Assembly: GCA_947627275.1 (NCBI GenBank)
Contig: CANQVK010000016.1
Span: 1-64,000, forward strand
Source: an uncultured Ruminococcus sp.
GTDB lineage: Bacteria; Bacillota; Clostridia; Oscillospirales; Ruminococcaceae
Length of the DNA: 64,000 nucleotides
Reading direction: 5' to 3'
The notes beneath the pieces were generated by a model. The model was not told the DNA's origin. It made no database searches and saw nothing but the letters and a program-made list of their open reading frames with translations. Made by a program: the position numbers and the translations under genes. Shown here one piece after another: positions 3,175 through 7,588 of this stretch. Numbering within the stretch: position 1 is the first letter of the stretch; each line of letters begins with the position of its first letter.

Positions 3175-3300
3175 TTGATTATTAAGGAACTGTTTAATAA
3201 AGCGTTAGACAATTCTGATAAAACAACGAAGTCTATAATACTTCACGGAGGAGGAAAATCATATGAGAATCGCCTTGACAGGCAACCCGAATTCGGGTAA
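3175..3300 (+). CDS. Possible small ORF upstream of and overlapping feoB
   Basis: A 41-codon frame begins with TTG at 3175, preceded by AGGAG seven bases upstream, and reads MIIKELFNKALDN followed by a Gly/Lys-rich stretch. It ends at 3300, overlapping the first 38 bases of feoB in another frame and running through the feoB ribosome binding site. I do not recognise it. It may be a leader peptide that couples translation to feoB, or chance; only the good ribosome binding site and the position support it. Confidence 0.25.
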   Translation: MIIKELFNKALDNSDKTTKSIILHGGGKSYENRLDRQPEFG

Positions 3301-5269
3301 AACAACTATGTACAACGCTCTCACAGGACGAAGCGAAAAGGTCGGAAACTGGGCGGGCGTTACCGTTGACAAAAAGGAGCATACCATTAAAAAGTCCTAT
3401 TACAAAGGAAATAAAGAGCTTATCGCTGTCGATCTTCCCGGAGCGTACTCAATGTCGCCTTTCACCAGCGAAGAAAGCGTAACAAGCTCATATGTAAAAA
3501 AAGAAAATCCCGACGTTATCGTCAATATCGTGGACGCAACGAACCTGAGCCGAAGCCTTTTCTTTACAACTCAACTGTTAGAGCTTGGCATACCTATGGT
3601 AGTCGCGCTTAACAAGTCCGACATCAACAAGAAAAAGGAAACAGTTATTGATTCCAAAAAGCTCTCCGAGAAGCTCGGCTGTCCCGTTATCGACACCGTT
3701 TCGACCTCGGCTGACGGACTTTCCGCTGTAATAAACGCAGCCGTTGAAAGGACAGGTCATCGCCAGAGCGCGCCTTACGTTCAGGGCAATATTGATCTCA
3801 CAAACAAATCCGCAGTTGAAGCCGCCGACCGCAAACGATATGAATTTGTAAATAATATCGTCAAGGAGGTCGAAAAGCGCAAGATACTTACAAAGGATAA
3901 AAATACAGGAGACGCTATCGACGCCGTTATTACCAATAAAATCGTAGGAATACCGATCTTCGCCGCAGTAATGTGGCTCGTTTTCCAGATCTCTCAGGTC
4001 TGGGTAGGTCCGTTTATTGCCGATACTCTCGTTGCATGGCTCGAGACCTTTCAGAGTTGGGTCGGCGGACTTCTTGAAAACGCCTCTCCCCTGCTCTCCG
4101 CGCTTCTTGTTGACGGAATAATCGGCGGTGTTATCGCAGTTCTGGGATTCCTCCCGCTCGTTATGATAATGTACTTCCTTATCGCCATTCTCGAGGATTG
4201 CGGATATATGTCAAGAGCGGCAGTCGTACTTGACCCTATATTCAAAAAAGTCGGACTTTCGGGAAAATCCGTTATCCCCTTTGTTATTACCGTCGGCTGT
4301 GCCGTTCCCGGAATCATGGCAAGCCGTACTATCCGCAACGAGCGTGAAAGACGAGCGACCGCCATGCTTTCTCCGTTCATGCCCTGCGGAGCAAAAATTC
4401 CCGTAATAGCTCTTTTTGCCGGAGCTTTCTTTGACAATGCAGGCTGGGTGAGCTGGGTAATGTACCTTTCAGGAATCGCCCTTATTTTCCTCGGCGCACT
4501 TCTTGTCAACCTTGTGACCGGCTACAGGGCAAGAAAATCATTCTTCATAATAGAACTTCCCGAATATAAATTCCCCTCCATTTGGGGAGCTTTCAAGTCC
4601 ATGTGCGGCAGAGGATGGGCTTACATAGTTAAAGCCGCAACTATCATTCTTCTCTGCAACACGGCGGTACAGATAATGCAGACGTTTGACTGGTCATTCC
4701 ATGTTGCCGAGGAAGCCGATCAATCTATCCTCGCATCTATCGCAAGTCCGTTCGCATACCTCCTTGTACCGATAGTAGGCGTACTCAGCTGGCAGTTGGC
4801 GGCTGCGGCAGTCACGGGCTTTATCGCTAAAGAAAACGTTGTCGGCACGCTTGCAGTATGCTTTGTAGGACTTGACAATCTCATTGATACCGAAGAACTT
4901 GCACTTATGGAGGGCGCAGGCGAAAGCGTTGCATCGGTAATGGCTATCACAAAAGTTGCGGCGCTGGCATACCTTATGTTCAACCTTTATTCGCCGCCCT
5001 GCTTTGCGGCTATCGGCGCTATGAACGCTGAAATGAAGAGCGCAAAATGGCTTTTGGGCGGAATCGGACTTCAGCTCAGCGTCGGATATACCGTCGCATA
5101 CCTTGTATACACGATCGGTACGCTTATCACAGCTCCGTCAACTCTCAATGTCGGCGCAGCTCTGGCAGGACTTGCCGCCGTTATCGTAATGGTATCTATT
5201 ATTGGAACGCTTATTGCGAGATCCAACAAGAGCATTAAGTCAGAATACGCATTATCTGCGGTAAAATAA
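3263..5269 (+). CDS. feoB: Ferrous iron transport GTPase/permease
   Basis: FeoB is the inner-membrane Fe(II) permease with an N-terminal G domain. The 668-residue protein has G1 GNPNSGKT (7-14), G3 DLPG (57-60) and G4 NKSD (117-120), then a helical bundle and, from about residue 225, a polytopic membrane part with the two Gate regions. The segments around SVIPFVITVGCAVPGIMASR and SPFMPCGAKIPV carry conserved Cys residues of the pore. GGAGGAGG precedes the ATG. It is followed after three bases by a Cys-rich partner gene and then a terminator. A missing FeoC-like regulator is normal for Firmicutes. Confidence 0.97.
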   Translation: MRIALTGNPNSGKTTMYNALTGRSEKVGNWAGVTVDKKEHTIKKSYYKGNKELIAVDLPGAYSMSPFTSEESVTSSYVKKENPDVIVNIVDATNLSRSLFFTTQLLELGIPMVVALNKSDINKKKETVIDSKKLSEKLGCPVIDTVSTSADGLSAVINAAVERTGHRQSAPYVQGNIDLTNKSAVEAADRKRYEFVNNIVKEVEKRKILTKDKNTGDAIDAVITNKIVGIPIFAAVMWLVFQISQVWVGPFIADTLVAWLETFQSWVGGLLENASPLLSALLVDGIIGGVIAVLGFLPLVMIMYFLIAILEDCGYMSRAAVVLDPIFKKVGLSGKSVIPFVITVGCAVPGIMASRTIRNERERRATAMLSPFMPCGAKIPVIALFAGAFFDNAGWVSWVMYLSGIALIFLGALLVNLVTGYRARKSFFIIELPEYKFPSIWGAFKSMCGRGWAYIVKAATIILLCNTAVQIMQTFDWSFHVAEEADQSILASIASPFAYLLVPIVGVLSWQLAAAAVTGFIAKENVVGTLAVCFVGLDNLIDTEELALMEGAGESVASVMAITKVAALAYLMFNLYSPPCFAAIGAMNAEMKSAKWLLGGIGLQLSVGYTVAYLVYTIGTLITAPSTLNVGAALAGLAAVIVMVSIIGTLIARSNKSIKSEYALSAVK

Positions 5270-5272
5270 GTT

Positions 5273-5428
5273 ATGGAAGATATTATAATTATTTTAATAG
5301 CGGCGGCGATCATCGCAGCTATCGTTGCCTACCTTGTACGTGCAAAAAAGCGTGACGAAACATGTATCGGCTGTCCGTATGCCAAGAAATGCAGCGGAAA
5401 ATGCAGCGGCGAACACAAAAAAGAATGA
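5273..5428 (+). CDS. FeoB-associated Cys-rich membrane protein
   Basis: A 51-residue protein encoded directly after feoB. It has one N-terminal membrane helix (EDIIIILIAAAIIAAIVAYLV, roughly residues 2-22), a basic stretch, and a Cys-rich cytoplasmic tail CIGCPYAKKCSGKC. This layout matches the small FeoB-associated Cys-rich proteins found after feoB in many Firmicutes, thought to handle Fe(II) or stabilise the permease. Translation is probably coupled to feoB, whose stop codon lies three bases upstream. The call rests on position, size and the Cys motif. Confidence 0.85.
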   Translation: MEDIIIILIAAAIIAAIVAYLVRAKKRDETCIGCPYAKKCSGKCSGEHKKE

Positions 5429-5467: not shown

Positions 5468-5485
5468 CAGACCTCCTCGGAAACT
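5468..5485. repeat. Solo copy of a CAGACCTCCTCGGAA repeat end
   Basis: The sequence CAGACCTCCTCGGAAACT matches the terminal repeat of the element at 32167-32328 and recurs at 61972-61986. It abuts the left arm of the palindromic element that starts at 5485. Confidence 0.45.
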
Positions 5486-5644
5486 ATAGTAATCCTACTT
5501 GAAATTAGAACAAGTTCACTGATAAAAATTATCCATAGCTGCGTTGTCATTGTCGCCGTACGACAGTACGCTTTCCTCCTCCGCCTTGCTATGAAAAGTT
5601 TTTATTCAGTTCCTTTTGTCCAAATCTCAAGTAGGATTACTATA
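5485..5644. mobile_element. MITE-like element with 18-bp perfect terminal inverted repeats
   Basis: Left end TATAGTAATCCTACTTGA (5485-5502) is the exact reverse complement of the right end (5627-5644). The homology of the two arms continues imperfectly inward for roughly another 35 bases, including CATAGC/GCTATG, so the whole 160-bp unit can fold into one long hairpin. It has no coding capacity of its own. It occupies the gap between the feo terminator and the promoter of the GS-like gene. Confidence 0.7.
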
Positions 5645-5665
5645 AAAATTGATTTGCGTGTTTAT
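5644..5665. repeat. 22-bp repeat shared with 62163-62184
   Basis: AAAATTGATTTGCGTGTTT and its flanking bases are identical to a segment at 62163-62184, where it forms the right end of an inverted-repeat element. Here it is a solo end, directly after the 160-bp element. Confidence 0.5.
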
Positions 5666-5678
5666 TTTTCTGCAAGTC

Positions 5679-5707
5679 TTTACTTTTTAAACAAAATATG
5701 CTATAAT
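5679..5707 (+). promoter_or_regulatory. Promoter of the GS-like/ANTAR operon
   Basis: TTTACT (5679-5684), 17-base spacer, TATAAT (5702-5707), about 30 bases upstream of the start codon at 5738. The leader is too short to hold the two-hairpin structure usually bound by ANTAR proteins. Confidence 0.6.
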
Positions 5708-5737: not shown

Positions 5738-7015
5738 ATGAATAATTCGCCAAAAGAGATACTTCGATTCGTCGAAGAAAACGATGTTAAATTTATACGC
5801 CTTACTTTCTGCGATATTTTCGGCAACCTTAAAAATATCGCCGTTATGCCAAACGAACTCGAACAGGCATTCTCATACGGAATACCCTTTGACGCCGTAA
5901 AATTTGACAGCTCCTGTCCGGAGCTTCTTCTCGTTCCGGACGTCTCCACCCTCTCGGTTCTGCCATGGCGACCAAAGTCGGGCAGAGTCGTGCGCTTTTT
6001 CTGTTCGCTCAAGTCCCCCGACGGCTCGGATTACTCCGCCGACATGCGCACAGACCTCGTCAACTTTATAAACGATCTCCGCCTCAGAGGTTTTTCCTGC
6101 GAAGTAAGCACACGCTGCGAATTTTACCTTTTTGATCTGGACGATAAAGGCGCTCCCACAAAGCTCCCCCACGATAACGGCGGCTATCTTGACGTTGCGC
6201 CATTGGATAAATGCGAGAACATCCGCCGGGAGATCTGCCTTTCCCTTGAAGAAATGGGGCTGAACCCGAAAAGCTCCTGCCATAAGCACGGACCGGGTCA
6301 GAACGAGATAGATTTTCGCGCCAACGACCCCGTAAACGCCGCCGATGATATGGTACATTACAAGACCGTTGTAAAATCTATCGCCGCACAATGCGGACTT
6401 TTGGCGTCCTTTATGCCTATGCCCCTTAAAGACGGACATGGAAGCGCACTGAATATTTCTCTGAGCGTTAAGAAAAACGGCGAACACATTTTCGGCAGCT
6501 CTCTTGAAAACATATCTCGCGAGGGAAAATGCTTTATATCGGGAATACTGCGCAGAATCGGCGAAATGACGGCGTTTCTGAACCCTACGTCAAACTCCTA
6601 CAGACGTTTCGGCGTTGGGTACGCTCCGCAGTATGCGAACCTGTCCGATCACAGCCTTTCACCTCTTGTACGTATACCCACCGCTTCGGGAACTCCGCCT
6701 CGTATCGAGCTTCGTTCCGCAGATGCCGCATGCAACCCGTATATCGCCTTTAAGCTTATCTTAGCGGCGGGAATAGAGGGTATCGTCAGCGGCGATCATA
6801 CCCTCCTTGAAAGCTGCGGCGATGCTCCGAACAAGCTTCCTCAAAGTCTCGCAGAAGCTATCGGAACTGCGAAAAACAGCGAATTTATCAGACGTACCCT
6901 GCCTGAAAAGGTCACGGACGGTATCCTTGAACGCCTTGATCTTCAGCTCCGCCGCTTGGAGAAAAGCCGCTCGCCCGAGGAGTTTGAAGATACGGTCTAC
7001 TTTCCGTATATTTAA
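5738..7015 (+). CDS. Glutamine-synthetase-like protein, probably not catalytic
   Basis: A 425-residue protein with the type I glutamine synthetase layout: N-terminal beta-grasp (1-100) and C-terminal catalytic fold. Conserved blocks remain (GPGQNEIDF 185-193, NPTSNSYRRF, RIELRS, NPYIAF). By manual alignment to bacterial GlnA, several essential residues are changed: the first metal-ligand Glu is R126, the HHE Glu is K183, the GSGMH metal-ligand His is N239, the flap Glu of PGYEAP is deleted, and the NRS Arg is replaced. Start at 5738 has GGGGG upstream; the longer frame from 5591 runs through the promoter and is rejected. Co-transcribed with an ANTAR gene nine bases downstream. It may be a sensor or a ligase with another substrate. 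Confidence 0.8.
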   Translation: MNNSPKEILRFVEENDVKFIRLTFCDIFGNLKNIAVMPNELEQAFSYGIPFDAVKFDSSCPELLLVPDVSTLSVLPWRPKSGRVVRFFCSLKSPDGSDYSADMRTDLVNFINDLRLRGFSCEVSTRCEFYLFDLDDKGAPTKLPHDNGGYLDVAPLDKCENIRREICLSLEEMGLNPKSSCHKHGPGQNEIDFRANDPVNAADDMVHYKTVVKSIAAQCGLLASFMPMPLKDGHGSALNISLSVKKNGEHIFGSSLENISREGKCFISGILRRIGEMTAFLNPTSNSYRRFGVGYAPQYANLSDHSLSPLVRIPTASGTPPRIELRSADAACNPYIAFKLILAAGIEGIVSGDHTLLESCGDAPNKLPQSLAEAIGTAKNSEFIRRTLPEKVTDGILERLDLQLRRLEKSRSPEEFEDTVYFPYI

Positions 7016-7024
7016 GGGGCAGCC

Positions 7025-7588
7025 ATGTACAGAGCTTTTATCATTTCCCGTCCCGATCAGACCGCCGATACTGTCCGCCGAACTCTGCAAAGTCTCGGCT
7101 TTGACAGCATATCCGAAGCCTCCGCAGGCGGTGAAGCGCGGCGTATCATAAGAAGCGAAAATCCTCCCGAACTTATCATAATCAACGCCCCTCTGCCCGA
7201 TGAATTCGGGATAGAGCTTGCCGAAGCCGCCGCCGAAGCAAATGCCAAAACAATACTTCTTTGCAGCGGAAATATTGCCGACGAACTTTCGGACAGGCTT
7301 TCGGCATATGACGTTCTCGTCCTTTCAAAGCCCGTTGACCGTGACGTTCTTCGCAGCGGAATACGTCTGCTTGAAGCCGATGCTGCGCCGTTTTCCGATA
7401 TTGAGGAATCAGACGAGGTACTCCGCAGAATAGGCGACATCAGGCTGATAAACAAGGCGAAATCGGCTCTTATGAAGTATCTTCGCTTTACCGAACCGCA
7501 GGCGCACCGTTATATCGAAAAGCAGGCAATGAACAACCGCTGCACAAGGCGTGAAGCGGCAGAAAAAATAATCACGGATATTTTATAA
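7025..7588 (+). CDS. ANTAR-domain regulator with a degenerate receiver domain
   Basis: A 187-residue protein: N-terminal CheY-like receiver (1-120) and C-terminal ANTAR RNA-binding domain (about 130-187, LINKAKSALMKYLRFTEPQA and the following helices). ANTAR proteins act as antiterminators by binding paired hexaloop hairpins in mRNA. In the receiver, the usual phospho-acceptor Asp position reads N within IIINAPLPDEFG, and the acidic DD pair near the N-terminus is not present, while the Lys of SKPV is kept. It is therefore unlikely to be switched by phosphorylation. GGGGC precedes the ATG, nine bases after the GS-like gene, so the two are one operon. Confidence 0.85.
   Translation: MYRAFIISRPDQTADTVRRTLQSLGFDSISEASAGGEARRIIRSENPPELIIINAPLPDEFGIELAEAAAEANAKTILLCSGNIADELSDRLSAYDVLVLSKPVDRDVLRSGIRLLEADAAPFSDIEESDEVLRRIGDIRLINKAKSALMKYLRFTEPQAHRYIEKQAMNNRCTRREAAEKIITDIL

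Follow-up and report, generated by a model that had tools for sequence, protein, structure and literature searches.

The glutamine synthetase (GS) of Bacillus subtilis also signals to the regulator TnrA by direct binding, and in solvent-forming clostridia we take glnA and nitR to be adjacent. In Pseudomonas, the ANTAR protein AmiR is paired with AmiC, which is of the periplasmic binding protein type. NasS-NasT is a precedent for a sensor combined with an ANTAR protein, as described in an excerpt of PMC3795266, and FBI-GS with GlnR is a precedent for a GS that signals to a regulator (passages of PMC9249791). For Clo1313_2030/2031 of Clostridium thermocellum, an ammonia-sensitive antiterminator role was suggested in a section of PMC4676874, whose account of these neighbours uses C. 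acetobutylicum as the model. The title of a 2017 paper, cited in a part of PMC9888227, states that deleting the type I GS of C. thermocellum deregulates nitrogen metabolism. ANTAR leaders near nitrogen genes, including glutamine synthetase, were described in 2012 (excerpts of PMC3369931 and PMC3369936).

The gene pair analyzed here was proposed in a first-pass annotation to be undescribed. This claim stands in part. The neighbours Clo1313_2030/2031 and ANTAR leaders at GS genes are already in print, according to excerpts of PMC4676874 and PMC3369936, whereas our search of the open-licence literature (on GS pseudoenzymes, ANTAR together with GS, nitR, the C. thermocellum locus tags and R. albus) found no report of dead GS clades. 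Nor did it find a report of a family-wide flap loss with pseudo-receivers, or of a GS as the sensor of an ANTAR protein.

The window, by which we mean the whole analyzed stretch of 64,000 nucleotides, derives from the genus Ruminococcus and contains a gene for a GS-like protein, GS-A, followed by a gene for an ANTAR protein, ANTAR-A (Table 1). GS-A matched the Pfam families Gln-synt_C (E 1.1e-68) and Gln-synt_N (E 1.3e-14), confirming that the N- and C-terminal domains of the GS fold are both present, and its score against the NCBIfam GlnA model was 267 bits, below the curated cut-off of 429. Immediately 5' of the promoter, at 5485-5655, lies a MITE-like repeat with imperfect terminal inverted repeats; it has 50 matches in the genome, of which 11, including the window copy, are near full length with 81–100% identity. 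Further upstream, at 3263-5427, a gene for a FeoB-like GTPase and then a small Cys-rich ORF were recognized by eye.

Table 1. Coordinates of features of the GS-A/ANTAR-A operon within the window.
Feature	Position	Strand	Basis
TATAAT-like -10 element	5702..5707	+	by eye; short leader before ATG
Putative GS-like pseudoenzyme GS-A, clade A, 425 aa	5738..7015	+	ORF and Pfam matches
4-residue deletion in D50/R62 loop, place approximate	5891..5911	+	alignment block 50-66; 20/20 clade A rows aligned there
R126 codon (B. subtilis E132, metal ligand)	6113..6115	+	alignment; K or R in 27/27 clade A
K183 codon (B. subtilis E189, metal ligand)	6284..6286	+	alignment; K in 27/27 clade A
N239 codon (B. subtilis H245, metal ligand)	6452..6454	+	alignment; S, N, C or T in 27/27 clade A
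YAP of GYAP, without flap Glu (E304)	6620..6628	+	alignment; flap Glu missing in 80/80 named relatives
ANTAR protein with pseudo-receiver (ANTAR-A), 187 aa	7025..7588	+	Pfam ANTAR E 2.3e-14, receiver E 2.4e-7
Asn54 codon at phospho-acceptor position	7184..7186	+	alignment; N in 99/123 partners

The residues of GS-A were aligned to those of B. subtilis GS, using the sequence of PDB 4lnf as the reference, and compared within a clade of 27 sequences (clade A) that consists of the window protein with 19 relatives and another 7 named ones. The seven named members are 56–66% identical to GS-A, and the next relatives show 50% identity or less. Six residues of the B. subtilis enzyme, E132, E134, E189, E196, H245 and E333, we take to be the metal ligands, and three of the six are substituted in GS-A. 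The alignment thus bears out the first-pass annotation, which had read R, K and N at three metal-ligand positions and GYAP in place of GYEAP; both the three replacements and the loss of the flap residue E304 extend to all 27 members of clade A. The same annotation had reported that the Arg of NRS, R316, is lost, which holds for GS-A, where the residue is L, but for only 15 of the 27 sequences across the clade. The loop that bears R62 in B. subtilis is four residues shorter in 20 clade A rows. E134, E196, R298, E333 and R335 are conserved in 27/27, and the arginines kept in GS-A are those that hold glutamate carboxylates in active GS. The roles of E304, R62 and R316 in the B. subtilis enzyme are described in passages of PMC9249791.

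The genome contains four GS-type and two ANTAR genes. Contig 7 carries a second pair, where the gene order is gltB, gltD, GS-B, ANTAR-B, purF-like and asnB-like, the names being given by resemblance. In the clade of GS-B (clade B, 17 rows), E132 is replaced by S and the flap Glu is missing in 17/17, R316 is lost in 16/17 and E333 in 5, whereas E189, E196 and H245 are retained in 17/17. The loss of metal ligands is more extensive in GS-A than in GS-B. The remaining two genes encode GSIII with intact motifs, judged by those presumed to be catalytic in GSIII. The search for an intact GS gene proposed in the first-pass annotation thus yielded two separate genes, and since these are present, GS-A is not the only GS of the genome.

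Selection was estimated from median dN/dS values, which are rough and derive from few usable pairs because the synonymous sites are near saturation. The values were 0.09 for GS-A (30/190 pairs usable) and 0.08 for GS-B (13/105), as compared to 0.24 for ANTAR-A (32/190) and 0.11 for ANTAR-B (24/105), indicating that ANTAR-A evolves faster than ANTAR-B. The earlier description of GS-A as an inactive-looking GS is thereby supported, with a sequence that appears to be under purifying selection (median dN/dS 0.09). As the metal-site and flap changes are common to 27/27 clade members, purifying selection is indicated and two intact GSIII genes are present in the genome, the changes in GS-A are very probably not decay. 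GS-A has probably lost its catalytic activity.

In ANTAR-A, the ANTAR domain is located C-terminal to a receiver fold, as seen with Pfam, the AF2 model (pLDDT 88.8, pTM 0.60) and Foldseek. The first solved structures retrieved by Foldseek were EutV, Rv1626 and AmiR, with AmiR within the first six rows. The VIA-align rows for the same model were nearly all receiver domains, and Rv1626 was the sole ANTAR protein among them. S8, R9 and N54 replace the acid pair and the phospho-acceptor, and S81 and K102 are retained. The Asn already noted in place of the phospho-acceptor Asp was confirmed by the alignment as Asn54; among 123 aligned partners, this position is Asn in 99 and Asp in 12. An acid is present at position 8 in none of the 123 partners and anywhere in positions 7–9 in 5. 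The aligned Thr/Ser position is Lys or Arg in 85 and the conserved Lys is retained in 95, and only 2/123 combine the Asp and the Lys with an acid close to the first strand. Within clade A (n=26), the phospho-acceptor position is N in 19 sequences, C, V and D in 2 each, and G in 1.

We examined the pairing of the two genes in 40 genomes, 24 of which belong to the genus Ruminococcus, including that of the window (G000). Of the 48 ANTAR genes, 47 immediately follow a type I GS, the exception being on contig 157 of G003. Seen from the GS side, 47 of the 54 type I GS rows have an ANTAR gene, and the 7 without one are from the ANTAR-less genomes G025 (twice), G028, G033, G034 and G039, together with the second GS of G011. 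A further set of 80 named loci came mostly from Bacillota, but also included some from Spirochaetota and one contig with the label Alphaproteobacteria. In 76 of these 80, a script placed the ANTAR gene directly downstream; counts over these loci are not independent, since some are near copies of each other. The four loci missed by the script were L067 and L124 (contig ends), L108 (barely beyond the distance cut) and L106 (intervening ORFs). In L106, the ORFs that separate the two genes are acetyltransferase-like and transposase-like.

The alignments place GS-A and ANTAR-A in a wider family that combines a flap-less GS with a pseudo-receiver ANTAR protein. Of 73 named relatives that do not belong to clade A, 62 retain the full set of six metal-ligand residues and the other 11 lack at least one, and the label "dead" is therefore not valid for the family at large. 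We rooted a 65-sequence tree on four canonical GS, and in it the branches to the flap-less family, clade A and clade B each had a support of 100. Clades A and B were not sisters in the same tree, with a support of only 85–90 for the branches that separate them. L054 and L055 have a canonical, flap-bearing GS that is also followed by an ANTAR gene. The pairing would thus have come before the loss of the flap, which in turn would have preceded the loss of metal ligands, and the latter probably occurred twice since clades A and B changed different residues.

We searched for hexaloop hairpins before nitrogen genes, as the first-pass annotation had suggested, and found attenuators before gltB and amtB-pyrG-glnN. 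In twelve Ruminococcus gltB leaders, for which the gene was the sole selection criterion, we found a common promoter, a hairpin such as GAAC[AAGGAC]GTTC, a terminator and a second hexaloop. The loop and 3' arm of the first hairpin are the 5' arm of the terminator, and the second hexaloop hairpin, with the loop AANGGN, lies 3' of the T-run. C, A1, A2, G4 and the closing G are invariant in both hexaloops in 12/12 leaders (C-AANG-NN-G). By eye, no T-run was seen behind the second hexaloop of the gltB leaders. The amtB-pyrG-glnN leader of the window genome displayed a similar order, with CAGC[AAAGGG]GCTG, a terminator and then GTACAC[AATGGG]GTGTGC. In four Ruminococcus amtB leaders (L161, L170, L171 and L189), the second hexaloop overlaps a second terminator-like fold, which amounts to two tandem attenuators.

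For a statistical evaluation we used 21 gltB and amtB leaders selected by hexaloop criteria (C-G closure, A1 and G4, with AA for P2), and three leaders of the 12 genomes, one of gltB and two of amtB, did not fit these criteria and were left out. The named pairs were formed in 91.3% of cells, as compared to 62.5% in shuffled and at most 43.7% in slid controls, and the covariation was 0.736, as compared to 0.217 and at most 0.140. Two-sided pair changes in the 21 leaders numbered 9, which is not above the shuffles (mean 8.2; 196/500 as high). The terminator form of the gltB leaders was likewise supported, at 93.0% versus 81.9%. A covariance model (R1) identified two strong sites in the window's own genome (E 4.9e-11 and 6.3e-9), located before gltB and amtB-pyrG-glnN. 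The next-best match had an E of 1.76, with 150 of 1195 first-look candidates scored, and matches in G000 beyond the first two, all at E 1.76 or worse, were dropped. On contig C16, the model gave no match at E <= 10, including before the GS-A operon, among the same 150 of 1195 scored candidates. Invariant loop letters in the strong set are partly so by construction, since it includes the model-building leaders picked by hexaloop criteria. A scan of the window, L141 and L007–L009 for dual hexaloops with a short linker gave one A-T-closed match only, and an Rfam search of four loci gave nothing at the gathering cut-off.

At E <= 1, the covariance model had matches in 28 of the 40 genomes. The weak matches numbered 33, and 5 of the 15 outside the genus precede GSIII on the same strand at 571 to 2504 bases (E 7e-4 to 0.4), where we estimate that about 0.1 would be expected by chance; the others do not (10/15 outside the genus, and 28/33 overall, with 0/18 before GSIII inside the genus). 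In the 80 named loci, we counted terminator-overlapping hairpins with a C-G-closed hexaloop and a minimum of 4 pairs and sorted them by loop letters 1 and 4. The A1/G4 combination was found 83 times, in 48/80 loci, whereas the 15 alternative combinations each gave 4 to 21 hairpins, and the most frequent A1/G4 loop was AAAGGC (32/83). For a core set of 74 hexaloop sites, from 44/80 loci, a sigma-70-like promoter was located just 5' of 52, versus 42 of 1480 random places. The first recognizable gene within 900 nt was GSIII for 30 core sites, GS-like for 5, amtB, gltB and pyrG for 3 each, and purF and asnB for 1 each. The other 28 had no match to 13 reference proteins within 900 nt, 5 of them being at most 400 nt from the locus end. 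Ten downstream proteins of these 28 were examined and included four GATase_2 proteins, three glutamate dehydrogenases, an adenylosuccinate synthetase, AsnA and one other (L061), which had no Pfam match at 1e-10. Thus, candidate hexaloop sites in the relatives precede GSIII, gdhA, asnA and GOGAT. Outside Ruminococcus, a second hexaloop with a stem of at least 4 pairs was found no more than 90 nt beyond the terminator at 6/71 sites, with up to 4/71 for other letter pairs. L105, L114 and L125 (minus strand), from other lineages, have tandem hexaloop-terminators 65–69 bases apart before GSIII. We conclude that the hexaloop hairpins are probable RNA targets of ANTAR proteins.

The RNA sites track with clade B more closely than with the window pair, and this is the weakest link of the analysis. 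Strong R1 sites were present in 14/17 genus genomes with clade B and in 2/7 without it, both of which are incomplete assemblies. GS-A was found in 20/24 genus genomes, several of them incomplete, and together with GS-B in 15/24. Among draft genomes, G011 (96% complete), G016 (91%) and G020 (86%) have A without B, and G009 (99%) has B without A. In G016, amtB is located 2 kb before GS-A and the hexaloop CAGC[AAAGAT]GCTG, over a terminator, was recognized by eye; in G011 and G020, no amtB and, in the model search, no strong site were found. A pattern search for the CAGC type in nine genomes gave matches in seven, including the known sites of G000, G008, G009, G030 and G035 and one match each in G011 and G020, where the backward control also gave one each; no match was found in G013 and G016. 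In G013, which is 98% complete and of the same genus, we found a single GSIII-size GS and no match for a GS-ANTAR-type GS, an ANTAR gene, amtB or the leader model. Pair A would act on the same class of RNA as pair B.

Our main reading, to which we assign a probability of roughly 60%, is that GS-A and ANTAR-A form a nitrogen-sensing switch in which a sensor derived from GS acts by direct contact on an antiterminator that works independently of phosphorylation. GS-A keeps the fold and the arginines for glutamate carboxylates but has lost the metal and flap chemistry; it would make no glutamine and act as a receptor for a nitrogen metabolite, most likely glutamine or glutamate. Glutamine sensing of the Bacillus type is unlikely, since R62 and E304, which hold glutamine in the inhibited state of the B. 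subtilis enzyme, are lost. The signal would pass to the pseudo-receiver by direct contact instead of phosphorylation, so that the ANTAR protein is held or released. At low nitrogen, the free ANTAR protein would attach to C[AANGNN]G hexaloop hairpins where the nascent leader begins and block the overlapping terminator. Read-through would then extend to amtB, pyrG, gltBD, the GS-ANTAR paralogues and glnN, the gene of the working GSIII, and the genes for ammonium uptake and fixation would be switched on. The antitermination part of this model is well supported. For the sensor part, we rely on the pairing of the genes, the loss of the phospho-site, the conserved changes in the active site and precedent, and we infer the contact, the ligand and the sign of the response. 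The sequences themselves establish these active-site changes, the pairing and the pseudo-receiver, as well as a hexaloop and terminator that covary and the identity of the genes that follow. A broader picture, which we put somewhat short of even odds, is that a GS became a pure receptor, probably twice in Ruminococcus, that works an RNA antiterminator by contact; the retired copies would time GSIII, and the two receptors of a cell may each convey a different signal to promoter-proximal attenuators of one kind.

The association of strong RNA sites with clade B, and the position of ANTAR-B inside the gltB gene cluster behind such a site, would also be expected if pair A modified pair B, with GS-A entering GS-B oligomers or ANTAR-A combining with ANTAR-B to tune or block a switch run by B. 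The more extensive ligand loss in GS-A and the co-occurrence of the two proteins in 15/24 genus genomes are consistent with such a role. However, A seems not to need B, since A is found without B in G011, G016 and G020, and B without A in G009 (all drafts), and we consider a modifier role unlikely. Still less probable is that GS-A remains a ligase that uses a different substrate or an altered metal centre, and that its link to the ANTAR protein is regulatory in the ordinary glnA-nitR sense. The retention of E134, E196, E333, R298 and R335, the intact six metal-ligand positions in 62/73 named relatives outside clade A and the purifying selection on the sequence point in this direction, but both metal sites are hit at once, Lys or Arg stands in place of two ligands and the flap Glu is missing, all in 27/27. 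The loss of several catalytic residues and the variable R316 would also fit a decaying, functionless duplicate of glnA-nitR. Given the open frames, the like replacements at three sites in 27/27, a dN/dS of about 0.09 and the presence of GS-A in 20/24 genus genomes, several of them incomplete, this explanation is very improbable.

The switch that we favour, in which GS-A controls ANTAR-A by contact, is a testable proposal for nitrogen sensing in rumen and gut clostridia. How Ruminococcus uses nitrogen is relevant to the digestion of fibre in ruminants. The proposal extends the scheme of a sensor plus an ANTAR protein to a retired metabolic enzyme, and the RNA model supplies a defined leader set and reporter constructs.

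Compared to known systems, the locus resembles AmiC-AmiR and NasS-NasT in that the ANTAR gene adjoins the gene of a candidate sensor, being behind a type I GS in 47/48 cases; the GS would be the signal partner. The candidate sensor here has a GS fold, unlike AmiC, and unlike NasS of Paracoccus, which resembles a periplasmic nitrate-binding protein according to an excerpt of PMC3795266. The pseudo-receiver of AmiR is likewise not phosphorylated, as stated in a passage of PMC3369936, whereas EutV-like response regulators are phosphorylated and ANTAR-A is without the acid pair and the phospho-acceptor Asp. The leaders resemble the EutV-type ANTAR RNA motif (Ramesh 2012) in the hexaloop A1/G4, the conserved closing pair, the mutual exclusion with the terminator and the nitrogen genes, as outlined in excerpts of PMC3369931. 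In that motif, according to the same excerpts, two hairpins with a linker of 5–12 nt precede the terminator, whereas here a single hairpin is promoter-proximal and a second either follows the terminator (Ruminococcus) or was mostly not found (6/71).

The closest described neighbours are Clo1313_2031 and 2030 of C. thermocellum, a type I GS that adjoins an ANTAR gene beside GOGAT in the account given by a section of PMC4676874. That section treats the GS as an enzyme and makes no mention of flap loss or a pseudo-receiver, and our likening is by description only. As in B. subtilis, where the GS informs the transcription regulator GlnR on nitrogen by direct binding (passages of PMC9249791), a GS fold here would report on nitrogen by contact. 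The GS of the GS-GlnR and GS-TnrA systems is an active enzyme in which E304 and R62 hold glutamine, whereas both are lost here, and the partner and the output differ as well, the output here being RNA.
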